DNA of 35,159 nt. It comes from Thermoplasmatales archaeon UBA509. GTDB taxonomy: Archaea > Thermoplasmatota > Thermoplasmata > Thermoplasmatales > Thermoplasmataceae. A model generated the notes under the pieces. It worked only from the letters and a program-made list of their open reading frames with translations, was not told the DNA's origin and did not search any database. The stretch spans positions 1 to 35,159 of the forward strand of contig DAJC01000016.1 of NCBI GenBank assembly GCA_002498845.1, given 5' to 3'. Shown here one piece after another: positions 2,501 through 6,977 of the stretch; within the stretch, counting starts at the first letter, position 1, and each line of letters begins with the position of its first letter. The translations under genes were made by a program, and so were the position numbers.

Positions 2501-3067
2501 CTATTGATTCATATTCTTTGGCCTAAGCACCGCCCCTAGAGCTGTGCCAACTATTCCAATCAGTATCATTGCCAGCCCTGCTACGTATAACGTGCCCATG
2601 AATGAGACCAGGCCGTAGTCTCTGATTACCGTATAGTTTATGTTCGAAGATGAGTTGCCAAAATAGACAACATAGTAGTGGCCCGTAGACACGACATATG
2701 AGTGGGTTGCAACACCGCTCACCGTAAGGTTGAGCACTTCATGGATATTATACAGCCCTATATTGGATCCATTGACCATGGAAAGCTGCGATGCATCTAT
2801 GAGGTAGGTGCTGAGGCCCTGTGTGGATATCTCTGACTGCCCAGTGATGTTCAGTTCCAGAGATACATATTCTCCAGCAGCAAATAAATTCAGTTTGTCA
2901 TAAGTCCTGATATGCGGTTTCTCAAGTTCAGGCATTGAGGCCGCCATAACGAGCCCTGCCACCAGTATTGCGAGACCTATGATGAGAAGTATCTTCCTCA
3001 AGTCCCGGCATGATGGGCTATTCACATAAATATCATGCTGTTGGATTGAACTGGCCATAAGATGCAT
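2501..3067 (-). CDS. Small bitopic membrane protein, unknown function
   Basis: 188 aa, not recognised. A hydrophobic segment at about residues 25-44 (ILLIIGLAILVAGLVMAA) is followed by about 110 polar residues with many N-x-S/T sequons, which suggests an extracytoplasmic beta-rich domain, then a second helix at about 155-180 and a short tail. The N-terminal 22 residues before the first helix look unlike a signal peptide. The ATG at 3058 or a TTG at 3001 (giving MRKILLIIG) may be the true start; the usable TATA-like sequences at about 3068-3110 do not settle this. It is transcribed divergently from the CDGSH gene. The two-helix architecture recalls archaeal envelope proteins of unknown role; I do not assign one. 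Confidence 0.6.
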   Translation of the reverse strand: MHLMASSIQQHDIYVNSPSCRDLRKILLIIGLAILVAGLVMAASMPELEKPHIRTYDKLNLFAAGEYVSLELNITGQSEISTQGLSTYLIDASQLSMVNGSNIGLYNIHEVLNLTVSGVATHSYVVSTGHYYVVYFGNSSSNINYTVIRDYGLVSFMGTLYVAGLAMILIGIVGTALGAVLRPKNMNQ

Positions 3068-3192
3068 ATAAGTTCAAACAGCTGTCCATGGTAAATTGCT
3101 ACATATATTGACTGTGGAAAATCTTAAAGATGCTTTCCAAGTCAGATGGGTAATGATTTATTAGGTTGAAAACATGTCAAATGGGATATAAA

Positions 3193-3402: not shown

Positions 3403-3848
3403 TCCATCAATTTTTTTTCAAGAACGAGCCTGGCCTCCCTGACATGATTCGTGGCATTCATCTGGGAGTTGTAGGTGTGTATGATCTTTCCATTAACAAT
3501 CACAAATGAGATTCTTGGTGGTATAAGAAAACCCTTGGCCCCGTACATTGACCGGATCTTCTGGTCCGGATCAGATACAAGCTTGAAGGGCAGTTGTCTG
3601 TGTTCCTTGAACTTTTTGTGAGATTCCACAGAATCTGAGCTGACACCTATGATTGTGCAGTCGAGCTTGCGGAACTCGTCCCATTCATCTCTGAAGGCAC
3701 ATGCTTCGGCTGTGCAACCTGGAGTTTCATCTTTGGGATAGAAGTAGAGAACAACTTTCCCTTTTGAATAGTCCGAAAACCTGATACGGTTGCCTTCATC
3801 ATCTATTGCTTCAAAATCTGGCGCATCCTCACCTATGGAAAGTGGCAT
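3399..3848 (-). CDS. bcp: Peroxiredoxin, PrxQ/Bcp subfamily
   Basis: 149 aa, the usual PrxQ length, with a thioredoxin fold. The active-site segment [20 protein letters not shown] contains the peroxidatic cysteine C45 and a second cysteine C50 five residues later, the PrxQ arrangement in which both lie on one helix and form an intramolecular disulfide. The conserved TPGCT and a later Arg near 115 (PPRISFVIV) fit the catalytic geometry. It reduces hydrogen and organic peroxides using a thioredoxin-like donor not encoded in this window. The last codons overlap the end of the convergent CDGSH gene by four bases. The neighbour is also redox-related, but the two genes are on opposite strands and so are not an operon. 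Confidence 0.93.
3411..3418 (+). terminator. Poly-T terminator of the CDGSH gene
   Basis: Eight consecutive T residues start 8 nt after the CDGSH stop codon, which matches the T-rich intrinsic terminators of archaea. The tract is inside the antisense of the peroxiredoxin coding region, where it encodes the Glu-Lys-Lys near the C-terminus. Confidence 0.5.
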
Positions 3849-3888
3849 AACAAATTATGCTTCTGCACTATTTAAATTGATGTGTGCA

Positions 3889-4293
3889 TTATTGTTTATT
3901 CTTCTCCTTTTTCTCCTCAAGTTCGGACCATTTTTTTTCCAGAGCCTGCTTCAGGTTGGTGACCTTCTGATTCCTGTCCTCCCCCTTCCTGAGCTCTTCT
4001 GGTACTCTGAGCCCGTCGTCCACATCATACTTGAAATTAATAATTGTGGACTGGCTTGTCTTGTATTTGTTGGATAGTTCCGTAATCCTCCCGTCAATTG
4101 ATGAGAGCATATCTTTCATGACTCCATACTCAAGTGAATCCTGCAATGCCCTGCGTATAACCTGCAACGCGGATTCGCCCTGCTGCCTCAGAAGGTTTAT
4201 GGCGGAGATATCTTCCTTTTCAAGCTTAATAATTGTTTCACTGAGGTCCGCTTCCTCCTCAGTTTCATTGTCATTTTTTTTCCTGGCTGCCAT
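3889..4293 (-). CDS. Probable ribbon-helix-helix protein with coiled-coil tail, downstream of the actin gene
   Basis: 134 aa, not recognised by name. Residues 1-18 are charged and probably disordered. Residues about 19-57 fit a ribbon-helix-helix fold: a short strand (ETIIKLE), a helix (KEDISAINLLRQQ), a Gly-containing turn, then a helix starting ESALQVIRRALQDSLEY. In RHH proteins a small residue followed by x-IRR-A is the usual start of helix B. Residues about 104-134 are Lys/Glu-rich and likely coiled coil. The gene lies 84 bp downstream of a Ta0583-type actin on the same strand, the place of parR after parM in plasmid systems, and ParR adaptors are RHH proteins. That is inference. It also has its own TATA-like box and a GGATGAG site before the ATG, so it may be transcribed on its own. 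Confidence 0.6.
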   Translation of the reverse strand: MAARKKNDNETEEEADLSETIIKLEKEDISAINLLRQQGESALQVIRRALQDSLEYGVMKDMLSSIDGRITELSNKYKTSQSTIINFKYDVDDGLRVPEELRKGEDRNQKVTNLKQALEKKWSELEEKKEKNKQ

Positions 4294-4339
4294 GTTCTCA
4301 TCCTTTCATAGAAGAAGGATGGTGCCCATCTCCAGCCAC

Positions 4340-4350
4340 AATAAATAATT
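4340..4350 (-). promoter_or_regulatory. Putative TATA box of the RHH-like gene
   Basis: The minus strand reads AATTATTTATT, about 50 nt before the ATG at 4293. A start 26 nt downstream would give a leader of roughly 24 nt that contains the purine-rich GGATGAG just before the ATG. This suggests expression at least partly independent of the actin gene. Confidence 0.4.
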
Positions 4351-4370
4351 TGTCAGGGAAATTGTGCAGC

Positions 4371-4377
4371 AAAAAAA
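4371..4377 (-). terminator. T7 tract directly after the actin stop codon
   Basis: Seven T residues on the minus strand follow the TGA of the actin gene immediately (stop at 4378-4380). This is a plausible archaeal terminator and could reduce read-through into the RHH-like gene, so that actin and its possible partner are made in different amounts. Confidence 0.4.
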
Positions 4378-5376
4378 TCACTGCGCTGATCTGCTGGCTG
4401 CATCCCTGTATCCCAGAGCATTTGCAAACTGGATATCCTCGGCTGGTATTTTTATGAGGGTGCCAGGCGCAAGTGCCTCTAGCCTGTGGCCTATGAGTGT
4501 TGAACCTCCGCCAACCGGTATGAGCGCAGTAATTCTGTCAAGCTCTTCCCTGAGATTCTCCCTGAGCTTGTCAAGGATCTTTGAGGCAAGAGTGTTCATA
4601 AGAGGCTCTGATACCTTTGGCCCTCCAACTTCTCTCTGCTTGAATACTACTGTCTGGGAAATGGCTTCCCTGGCTATATCGGTTGGCACTATGAATCCAG
4701 TCTCCTTGGCAATTGCCTTGCTTATGCCTGAGACAAGATCGCCGACTCCTGCCTGTATACTGAAAGACATTTCCACAACAGGTTCCATGTTCTTCAGGTT
4801 AACAGTGAGGACATCAGTAGTCCTTGAGCCGATATCCACCACAACCCCATATCCATACTGGGTTTTAATCAGTCCCTGATCCAGCAGGTAAAGTGCCGCC
4901 CCTACTCCCTGAGGTCTCATAACCAGTTTTGAAAGCTTGAATTTCCTCGTCTCTCCGGAAACTGACTTTATATCGAATTCCTTGCCTTCCAGAAATTCCT
5001 TTGCGGCGTTGAGCTCATGTTCAAATGTACCCAGGGGGGTTCCGCTGCCAAGTACTATTTCTGCCAGGTTTCCGTCTGTTCCGGCTCCGCTCATCCAGAG
5101 GGCTCCGGCAAGAAGCGGCAACGAGTCCGGGTCAGAAAGTCTCCCATCTCCCTGGGGCTCCCTGACGTTTGCGCCCGTGGCATTGTCTCCAAAGAAGAAT
5201 GGCTCACCATCGTTTATTGTAAGGATCGTTGTTGATCCCCCTATTCCCCAGTTCTTAGCCTCAGTTCCAGCCCATCTTGACGGGAACTTCTCTCTTTTGC
5301 CGTCCACTCCGATGACTTTTGTGTCACCATATCCTAGGTCGATACCAACTGTTATCAATCTTCCCTCACCTTTCAT
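4378..5376 (-). CDS. Archaeal actin/ParM-like ATPase, Ta0583 type
   Basis: 332 aa. The protein matches my memory of T. acidophilum Ta0583 (about 326 aa) along its whole length. Actin-fold motifs are present: phosphate-1 loop DLGYGDTK (13-20), phosphate-2 loop DIGSRTTDV (181-189) and adenosine motif VGGGSTLIG (288-296). Ta0583 was shown by structure and biochemistry to be an actin/ParM-like filament former with ATPase activity; its cellular role is open, with DNA segregation one proposal. Start: the ATG at 5376 is given, but a TTG at 5358 sits 6 nt after a GGTGAGGG Shine-Dalgarno-like site and would give an N-terminus (ITVGIDLGYGD) that aligns better with Ta0583. The upstream 266 bp hold direct repeats and palindromes; an RHH-like gene follows. 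Confidence 0.92.
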   Translation of the reverse strand: MKGEGRLITVGIDLGYGDTKVIGVDGKREKFPSRWAGTEAKNWGIGGSTTILTINDGEPFFFGDNATGANVREPQGDGRLSDPDSLPLLAGALWMSGAGTDGNLAEIVLGSGTPLGTFEHELNAAKEFLEGKEFDIKSVSGETRKFKLSKLVMRPQGVGAALYLLDQGLIKTQYGYGVVVDIGSRTTDVLTVNLKNMEPVVEMSFSIQAGVGDLVSGISKAIAKETGFIVPTDIAREAISQTVVFKQREVGGPKVSEPLMNTLASKILDKLRENLREELDRITALIPVGGGSTLIGHRLEALAPGTLIKIPAEDIQFANALGYRDAASRSAQ

Positions 5377-5424
5377 TCACAGACTCAGCATAACAGAATT
5401 GATCCATAGCAACAAGGAGCATAT

Positions 5425-5496
5425 TCATGCCCGCATACTACCATGGCAACCATGTTTCTGCCTGTCCTAAGCTCACAACAATTGTCATGTCCGCAT
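5425..5496. repeat. Direct repeats and palindromes upstream of the actin gene
   Basis: Two 12-mers, TCATGCCCGCAT (5425-5436) and TCATGTCCGCAT (5485-5496), match at 11 of 12 positions and are exactly 60 bp apart. A partial copy, TCATGGCATT, lies at 5516-5525. Between them are two ACCATG copies at 5440 and 5449 (also an inverted pair CATGG/CCATG around CAA at 5447-5449) and the palindrome ACAATTGT at 5478-5485. The position, upstream of an actin gene, is where plasmid parC centromeres lie, but so few degenerate copies could be chance or promoter elements. Confidence 0.4.
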
Positions 5497-5543
5497 TTAA
5501 ATGTTTGCCTTGATCTCATGGCATTTCGTTACTGGAGAATGAG

Positions 5544-5588
5544 ATTTTAATGCGTGGGCATTAAAATATAGATTAATAGTCTATATTT
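5544..5588. promoter_or_regulatory. Two overlapping perfect inverted repeats before prpD
   Basis: Dyad 1: ATTTTAATGC (5544-5553) and GCATTAAAAT (5558-5567), ten perfect pairs around GTGG. Dyad 2: AAATATAGA (5564-5572) and TCTATATTT (5580-5588), nine perfect pairs around a 7-nt spacer. They share bases 5564-5567, so two dimeric proteins could compete, or alternative hairpins could form. The block ends about 54 bp before the prpD ATG, the usual place for an archaeal activator or repressor site. A propionate-responsive regulator is an inference only. Confidence 0.6.
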
Positions 5589-5615
5589 ACTTTCGGCATA
5601 AAGCACTGAATTCCG

Positions 5616-5622
5616 TTAAATA
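5616..5622 (+). promoter_or_regulatory. Putative TATA box of prpD-prpB
   Basis: TTAAATA is centred 24 nt before the ATG at 5643, which fits leaderless initiation at that ATG and argues against the in-frame TTG at 5634 as the start. Confidence 0.5.
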
Positions 5623-5642
5623 GTCCGATTCCATTGCAGAAT

Positions 5643-6977
5643 ATGGATGCAGTCATAGCTAAAATTATTGAGCATTCGGATGAAATCAGAAGGTCCCATA
5701 TTCCCTCAGATGTCTCCGAGGAGATGAAAAAAAGAATTGCGGATTCCATAATCACCTCATTTGGTGCAAGGGATGCACCTCCTGTCAGGATAGAGAAGAA
5801 AGTGTTCCTTCCACTCTCCGGCAATCTTTCATCACGAGTTTATTTTGGAGCCGGAAGGGCCACTCCGGATATTGCAGCCTTCATAAACGGATCCATGACC
5901 AGGTACCTGGACTACAACGACACTTACCTCTCCAAGGAGGCGTTGCATCCCTCTGACAACATACCCCCTCTGCTTGCAATTGCTGATGCCATGGATTATG
6001 ATGGCAAGGCAGTTCTTGAAGCTGCCTCCCTGGCTTATGATGTTGTAGGGTCTCTTGCTGATGCAGTTTCAATAAGGGACAGGGGCTGGGATCACGTAAC
6101 GTACATTTCAATATCGGCAGCTTCTGGCCTCGCCAACCTGATGGATATGGACGTGAAGAAATTCGAGAATGCCATCAGCCTTTCACTCAACAACAGCATA
6201 AGCATGAGGCAGACAAGGGCCGGGGAGCTCAGCATGTGGAAGGGCTGTACCGCGTCCGATGCTTCCAGGAATGCTGTTTTTGCTGCTCTTCTGGCTTCTG
6301 AGGGTTTCACGGGACCATCGCCAGTCTTCACTGGCGAGATGGGGTTCTTCAAGCAGGTATCCGGAGAATTCTCGCTGGAGCTTGGATTCGGCAAGGTCCT
6401 TCGCACAATGATAAAGAATTTTCCGGTGGAATACCATGCAATGAGCGCTGCAGAGGTTGCCCTGAATATCAGGAGTAAAGTAAAAGGTGAGATAAAGAGA
6501 ATTGATGTTGAAACATTCCAGGTTGCCTACAGCATTATCATAAAGGATCCAGAGAAGCTGAGGCCAAGAACAAGGGAGACTGCTGATCACAGCATGCCCT
6601 ATATCGTTGCTTACACCCTGCTTCACGGCGCACCAAATCCAGAATCATACAGCGACGATCTTCTTCACGATTCCCGTATTCTGGGTTTAATCGACAGATC
6701 CTCGTACAGGGTGACAGAAAGATTCAACAGGATGTACCCTGATTATCTGCCTGTTAAGATCACTGTTGAGGCAGAGAACGGAACATTCACTGAAGAGATG
6801 GATGCCCCCAAGGGGCATTTCAGGAAGCCTTACACCTGGGATGACCTGAAAGCAAAGGGCGAGAGAGTGATGGGGCCCGAGAACTCAGCCATACTGATGG
6901 ATTTCATGAAAAGTTTCCAGAAGCACCAGGTAAGGGAATTAATGGAGGTGATTTCCGATGTCAGTTTTAAGAGATAA
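5643..6977 (+). CDS. prpD: MmgE/PrpD family protein, probable 2-methylcitrate dehydratase
   Basis: 444 aa, in the usual family range (450-480). It has the MmgE/PrpD two-domain pattern: an N-terminal all-helical domain with the conserved blocks GSMTRYLDYNDTY and HPSDNIPPLLAIAD (about residues 80-115), and a C-terminal lid domain after about residue 265 with VEYHAMSAAEVAL. The family dehydrates 2-methylcitrate to 2-methyl-cis-aconitate in the propionate-degrading methylcitrate cycle; some members act on other hydroxy-acids. The neighbour, overlapping by 20 bp, is a PrpB-like lyase, which supports the methylcitrate assignment. No methylcitrate synthase or propionyl-CoA synthetase gene is in the window. 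ATG 5643 is chosen over TTG 5634 from the promoter spacing. Confidence 0.9.
   Translation: MDAVIAKIIEHSDEIRRSHIPSDVSEEMKKRIADSIITSFGARDAPPVRIEKKVFLPLSGNLSSRVYFGAGRATPDIAAFINGSMTRYLDYNDTYLSKEALHPSDNIPPLLAIADAMDYDGKAVLEAASLAYDVVGSLADAVSIRDRGWDHVTYISISAASGLANLMDMDVKKFENAISLSLNNSISMRQTRAGELSMWKGCTASDASRNAVFAALLASEGFTGPSPVFTGEMGFFKQVSGEFSLELGFGKVLRTMIKNFPVEYHAMSAAEVALNIRSKVKGEIKRIDVETFQVAYSIIIKDPEKLRPRTRETADHSMPYIVAYTLLHGAPNPESYSDDLLHDSRILGLIDRSSYRVTERFNRMYPDYLPVKITVEAENGTFTEEMDAPKGHFRKPYTWDDLKAKGERVMGPENSAILMDFMKSFQKHQVRELMEVISDVSFKR

Follow-up and report, generated by a model that had tools for sequence, protein, structure and literature searches.

The type II plasmid partition systems of the ParMRC kind, represented by those of R1 and pSK41, are the closest described counterparts of a pair of genes that we report here from the chromosome of a member of the archaeal family Thermoplasmataceae, Thermoplasmatales archaeon UBA509 (GenBank assembly GCA_002498845.1, contig DAJC01000016.1, positions 1 to 35,159; this whole stretch of 35,159 nucleotides is referred to as the window). 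With these systems the pair shares an actin-like ATPase of the ParM clade and a small neighbouring protein whose head is ribbon-helix-helix (RHH)-like and whose C-terminal helix is conserved. ParR of R1 contacts ParM through a stretch of 17 residues at its C-terminal end (PMC4911067). It differs from them in being archaeal and chromosomal, in that no parC-like repeats are conserved ahead of the actin gene, and in that the partner gene has, in the window's genus, an apparent promoter of its own. A chromosome-encoded ParMR (cParMR) was reported in 2025 from Desulfitobacterium and Clostridium and likewise consists of a chromosomal ParM and an adjacent cParR predicted to be an RHH protein, the cParRs having limited mutual similarity (PMC12270681, available portion); it differs in being bacterial, and the main text, as far as accessible, mentions archaea only in an author biography. 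Salactin of the haloarchaea is also a chromosomal archaeal actin proposed to serve chromosome segregation, but in the accessible text no DNA adaptor is mentioned, and ParR and Thermoplasma are absent from it (PMC10746226). AlpAC/alpS of prophage CGP3 resembles our pair in combining an actin with a DNA-binding adapter that is transcribed along with it and governs the dynamics of its filaments (PMC5539076, in the part available), yet it is phage-borne, and the term ribbon-helix-helix is absent from PMC5539076. The window's actin belongs to the same family as Ta0583 (PDB entries 2fsj, 2fsk and 2fsn), for which PMC2651865, treating it among ParM-like proteins, describes filaments in vitro and a crystal structure. 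With reference to earlier work, a 2023 paper attributes to Ta0583 plasmid partitioning and the separation of chromosomes (PMC10354927). What is added here is a conserved partner gene, for which no describing title or abstract opening was found in a literature search that was thin on subscription journals; PMC7613921, available in part, is a review.

We propose that the two genes form a ParMR-like filament and adaptor module on the Thermoplasmataceae chromosome, a reading to which, taken as a whole, we assign a probability of about 0.55. The pair is ParMR-like rather than a proven member of ParMRC, since the evidence for an RHH fold is moderate and a conserved parC-like array is lacking. The actin gene occupies 4378..5376 on the minus strand, with an open reading frame (ORF) of 332 residues when read from the ATG at 5376, although the true start is probably the TTG at 5358-5356 because the conserved AAAGGTGAGG immediately precedes this codon in the locus alignment (start context judged by eye). 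Its top sequence match in the PDB is Ta0583 itself (2fsj_A, E 1.3e-134, query residues 6-330), its Pfam domains are ALP_N (PF17989, 1.2e-31) and the archaeal MreB-like_C (PF21522, 6.6e-46), and more distant PDB matches include pCBH ParM and, weakly, Dh-cParM1 (8x1i, E 4.7e-05). Pfam, PDB and plasmid matches alike thus place it in the ParM/ALP clade, and its high similarity over the full length makes it Ta0583-type; it is 62% identical to the actin of the T. acidophilum locus and 100% identical in two related genomes. The partner, an ORF of 134 residues at 3889..4293 on the minus strand, follows after a gap of 84 nt, and a peroxiredoxin gene comes next downstream. Both genes had been recognised in an earlier note made from the letters of the window, and both ORFs and their order are confirmed.

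The partner is a genuine gene under purifying selection. Codon comparison gave dN/dS values of 0.03-0.105 in six of ten gene pairs, the other four being saturated at synonymous sites, and a search of 5.8 billion protein sequences yielded 57 proteins (the window's own counted) with 58-100% identity over the aligned part. Its conservation is moreover linked to that of the actin. Among 77 Thermoplasmataceae genomes, 37 have an actin match and 40, many of them incomplete assemblies, have none; in 28 of the 37 the partner adjoins the actin gene downstream on the same strand (29 pairs in nine genera), as expected for the small adaptor gene of a ParMRC-type locus. Measured from mechanically assigned ORF starts, the gaps lie between about 10 and 90 nt, and in G025 the partner start so assigned overlaps the end of the actin gene. 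A profile of 43 partners (A3), many of which came from the genomes then searched so that its success is in part by construction, gave strong matches in 29 genomes, namely the 28 with a pair and G027, where the partner gene sits at the edge of a contig of 3.2 kb; this contig-end case apart, no strong match away from an actin gene was found among the 77 genomes, and five further matches were weak (E 0.004-0.064), none of them beside an actin gene. The pair is also present in the genome that encodes Ta0583: T. acidophilum (G095) has a 102-residue partner ORF, annotated as 'hypothetical membrane protein', 10 nt downstream of the Ta0583 gene, and T. volcanium (G028) has one as well (TVG0634229), both with the same head and the same tail as the window's protein. 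The gene order on which the earlier note based its ParMR-like interpretation thus recurs in most of the actin-bearing genomes of the family. Neither the neighbourhood survey of Ta0583 homologues that it called for nor the structure prediction described below refuted that interpretation.

The genes around the pair are less constant. In a flank survey of 32 loci, 13 loci, belonging to five genera, have prpD/prpB upstream of the pair, and at the loci of four further genera with the partner these genes were not detected; the flanks are of unequal length (below 4 kb for L026 and L029, and 820 nt upstream for L071), so that the absence of neighbours at those loci is weak evidence. Since the neighbours change, it is the actin and its partner that are kept as a unit, and we are highly confident that the two act together. 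When 389 genomes taken from the phylum were searched with profile A5, a Ta0583-type actin was detected in 22, every one of them a member of this family. Carriage of the pair by viruses was considered and rejected, as a search sensitive to close relatives detected no relative of either protein in viral contigs. In G013 there are two diverged Ta0583-type actins (L080 and L081, 63% and 59% identical to the window's), each with its own diverged partner. In G083, G077 and G012 (loci L068, L069 and L082) the actin is interrupted or partial, and in G012 the partner ORF is still intact.

The partners, which range in length from 102 to 237 residues, are built from two conserved ends and a variable middle. 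The head shows the order strand, helix, GES turn and 'IRRAL' helix, the linker is highly variable, and the tail is a short helix with the motif LKxxLExxW (114-122 in the window's protein, in which the RHH-like segment comprises residues ∼19-57 and a long helix residues 42-85). Three residues, E55, E119 and W122, do not vary among 17 diverse partners, three more (E40, R48 and L118) hardly vary, and among 43 sequences L24, L34, L114 and K115 are nearly invariant as well. By analogy with ParR, in which the head binds DNA and the tail binds actin, this arrangement of head, variable linker and conserved C-terminal helix has the appearance of a ParR-like design. The RHH pattern that the earlier note saw at residues 19-57 is recovered at the level of the family: the 43-sequence profile aligns with RHH_1 in register across residues 19-55, scoring 23.9, while the best of 100 whole-profile column shuffles reached 15.3 and the reversed profile 14.6; when only the first 70 profile positions were used, the true score was 22.5, compared with a maximum of 16.4 in 100 shuffles. 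The partners of G009, G012 and G013 likewise match the RHH_1 profile in register. An AlphaFold2 model of the window's partner based on 43 sequences (mean pLDDT 70.7, pTM 0.34) predicts helices at 26-35, 42-85 and 106-133, with block-mean pLDDT values of 85-91 for residues 21-70 and low confidence for 82-98. No strand is assigned in this model of a lone chain, which is to be expected because the ribbon of an RHH domain forms between two chains. The predicted topology is thus compatible with an RHH head, as it is with a long-helical, coiled-coil tail, although confidence is too low for the model to serve as proof. Taken together, the in-register profile match and the compatible predicted topology support an RHH fold of the head with moderate confidence, and it is with the same moderate confidence that we suggest that the head binds DNA.

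Several observations weigh against our proposal. The 28 window-like sequences alone score 22.6 with RHH_1, but their alignment is limited to residues 40-55; the Thermoplasma partners alone show a small shift in the strand, and those of genera g3 and g17 alone gave no in-register match. When 17 partners were compared with family libraries, the best E values were 9.8e-4 (NCBIfam), 0.0021 (Pfam) and 0.0046 (PHROGs), each for one member, none of these families being RHH, and RHH_1 was matched by two of the 17 at E 0.26 or worse. A Pfam-type scan of the window's partner gave no convincing family match, a sequence search of solved structures with it found no relative (a single chain at E 0.53), and profile A4 searched against the sequences of solved structures gave a best E of 0.096 for a coiled-coil-like entry. 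Foldseek returned nothing significant for the window's model (best E 4; a MazEF-mt1 chain, 6kyt, a myosin/Gp7 fusion, 7p5x and 1xrx were among the rows, none significant) and nothing meaningful for that of the T. acidophilum partner, a weaker model (mean pLDDT 60.7) with the same helix order. Furthermore, nine genomes, all of genera g10 (which we take to be Ferroplasma-like) and g18 and including Acidiplasma aeolicum, carry the actin without the partner, which is therefore not universal; four further g10 genomes have no actin match. G083 and G077, with their interrupted or partial actins, are among these nine. Within g18, the actin of G062 (L050, the same as L086) groups with those of g10, and the actins of G022 and G063 (L072, L075) group with that of G009; given the differing grouping and the differing downstream genes, transfer is possible.

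A further point against a complete partition locus comes from the DNA upstream of the actin gene, where the earlier note had seen repeats that fit parC. These repeats are real in the window. Comparing 10-mers at 21 loci, with each region shuffled 60 times, we found 11 inverted pairs in the 250 nt upstream of the window's actin gene, where the shuffle mean is 2.0 and none of the 60 shuffles reaches 11, and five direct pairs compared with a mean of 1.2 (p 0.07). The pairs stem from two near-palindromes, from a 10-mer of related sequence at the actin gene's TATA-like box, and from two-copy direct repeats. The direct repeats are, however, absent in the close relatives L048, L040 and L041. An excess of direct repeats at p<=0.07 is seen in four of the 21 loci (the window at 0.07, L078, L080 and L077) and an excess of inverted repeats at p<=0.05 in six, and no tandem array was found upstream of the actin genes. 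Repeats that are missing or fade in close relatives do not make up a conserved array; a parC-like array as a conserved element was therefore rejected, the two- and three-copy repeats not being shared by the nearest relatives. In L077 (G084), three copies of a TTAGTCAATG-like 10-mer lie upstream of the actin gene, an arrangement that three other loci of the genus do not share.

The promoter and leader regions were aligned for nine loci from two genera, with the elements named by eye. A TATA-like box is kept upstream of each gene and a long leader precedes the actin gene; in the window the boxes lie on the minus strand at 4340..4349 (partner) and at 5494..5503 (actin; CATTTAAATG), the latter ∼140 nt upstream of the likely start. 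A structured leader RNA was rejected, as a search of positions 3800-5700 of the window against Rfam gave no match at E<=1. Between the partner's box and its start codon lies the inverted repeat CATCCTT-N9-AAGGATG (4299..4321), which is present in all nine loci, with a spacer of 9 nt in eight and of 6 nt in L048, and imperfect in L045; as a dispersed site it was rejected, since it occurs at three places in the 2.0-Mb nearest genome. A 25-bp near-palindrome (5564..5588) between the divergent actin and prpD promoters is conserved in close relatives, its arms being kept in L041 even though the synonymous sites of the partner are saturated in comparison with that genome (G004). Its overlapping neighbour, the inverted repeat ATTTTAATGC-N4-GCATTAAAAT (5544..5567), to which the 10-mer at the actin TATA-like box is related, is imperfect in relatives and was not found in L041, and the palindromes fade in L040. 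With one copy and one site with three mismatches in the nearest genome, the 25-bp palindrome was rejected as a dispersed centromere; it could be an operator of the partner or of prpD. In Thermoplasma and g3, where the two genes are 10-14 nt apart, they are probably transcribed together.

As for the origin of the pair, the plasmid-borne relatives of the actin, among the 30 of 41 matches listed, are ParMs at 23-29% identity, nearly all annotated as ParM or StbA. The best of those listed are on plasmids pL15 and pY0017 of Sulfobacillus thermotolerans, an acidophilic bacterium, and there the ParM gene is followed by a 93-residue RHH-like ORF. The LKxxLExxW motif is not visible in these two ParR-like proteins, and the match of the partner profile with them is not significant (score 15.9, probability 1.4%), a point that also weighs against our proposal. 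The simplest account would be that a plasmid-type module was gained once and then inherited vertically.

If the partner binds the actin, traces of the contact might be sought on the actin itself. At four positions (R144, V179, D325 and R329 in the numbering of the window's actin) no more than one of the 29 partner-bearing actins departs from the shared residue, and all seven intact partnerless ones carry a different one, whereas 35 other clade pairs give zero or one such column; the tree and the residue analysis comprise 36 sequences, with the interrupted or partial actins of G012, G083 and G077 left out. The exceptions are K at position 144 in the partner-bearing G009 and I at position 179 in one G013 actin. 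The best tree has the partnerless actins in two clades. Since a tree uniting them in one is not rejected (AU p 0.11), independent loss of the partner is not established; the signal may thus reflect one ancestral change, or two independent pairs at most, which again weakens the case. As a candidate partner-binding face, the four residues are a lead only.

A ParA-type ATPase (PF13614, 144-150 bits) was found in nine of ten g10 genomes and in both g19 genomes, with no occurrence in the 28 genomes that carry an actin partner; this class was chosen by eye after the results were visible. In the two loci inspected it is followed by a protein of 107-120 residues (L182, minus strand, 1815-2672 and 1463-1825; L183, plus strand, 1985-2839 and 2823-3146). 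This could be a replacement segregation system or plain lineage specificity.

How the partner works may be viewed differently. It could be a regulator that caps, severs, depolymerises or bundles actin filaments and has no part in segregation, its RHH-like segment serving only to dimerise. The invariant residues, which lie in the C-terminal helix and at E55, the lack of a conserved parC-like array and the g3 and g17 partners that do not match RHH in register on their own would all fit such a role, and a bacterial chromosomal ParR is reported, in the available part of PMC12270681, to have properties of a depolymerisation factor. We consider it unlikely, although by no means far-fetched, given the in-register RHH match of the family as a whole and of the G009, G012 and G013 partners. 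RHH domains, moreover, mostly bind DNA. The partner might instead merely regulate its own transcription and be conserved beside the actin by chance. The inverted repeat ahead of its start codon at all nine aligned loci (two genera), its occurrence at three places in the nearest genome, and the 9-nt spacer in eight of the nine suit an operator, an RNA hairpin being equally possible. Yet a gap of 10-14 nt in Thermoplasma and g3 leaves no space for a separate promoter, a pure repressor would have no need for a conserved LKxxLExxW helix after a variable linker, and in G013 each of two actins has its own partner; autoregulation alone thus appears improbable.

Least probable of all, and in our view barely credible, is that the pair is a non-working relic of an integrated plasmid on its way to being lost. 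The interrupted or partial actins of G083 and G077, two genera in which the partner was not found, and the 40 of 77 genomes without an actin match, many of them incomplete assemblies, could be taken in this sense. Purifying selection on the partner disfavours it, however, as do an actin that is 100% identical in two related genomes and the retention of the pair in nine genera. The ParMR-like filament and adaptor module that we favour can also be carried further, albeit tentatively: the pair may be a domesticated plasmid ParMR serving as a chromosomal machine that moves or anchors DNA, with the partner as a kinetochore-like adaptor that would answer what Ta0583 is for, and with a ParA-type system as substitute in some partnerless lineages (g10, g19). 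We regard this extended version as doubtful rather than improbable.

For the ParMR-like module itself, we envisage that the actin forms ATP-driven filaments and that the partner is an RHH-type dimer whose N-terminal part would hold DNA, while the linker of variable length would present the LKxxLExxW helix to the actin, most likely at a filament end. Filaments might then be nucleated, captured or pushed at a DNA site and so move or position DNA. The pair would probably derive from a plasmid partition locus and would have been kept as a unit while its neighbour genes changed. That its task is chromosome segregation we hold with lower confidence than that the head is an RHH domain that binds DNA.

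That Ta0583 takes part in separating DNA has already been proposed in the literature, and we saw no mechanism described for it; the partner, which is present in the type species as well, makes this role directly testable. Should the partner link filaments to DNA, an archaeal actin would have its DNA adaptor, and the Thermoplasmataceae pair would, if our proposal is true, exemplify in archaea the domestication of a plasmid partition module on a chromosome.
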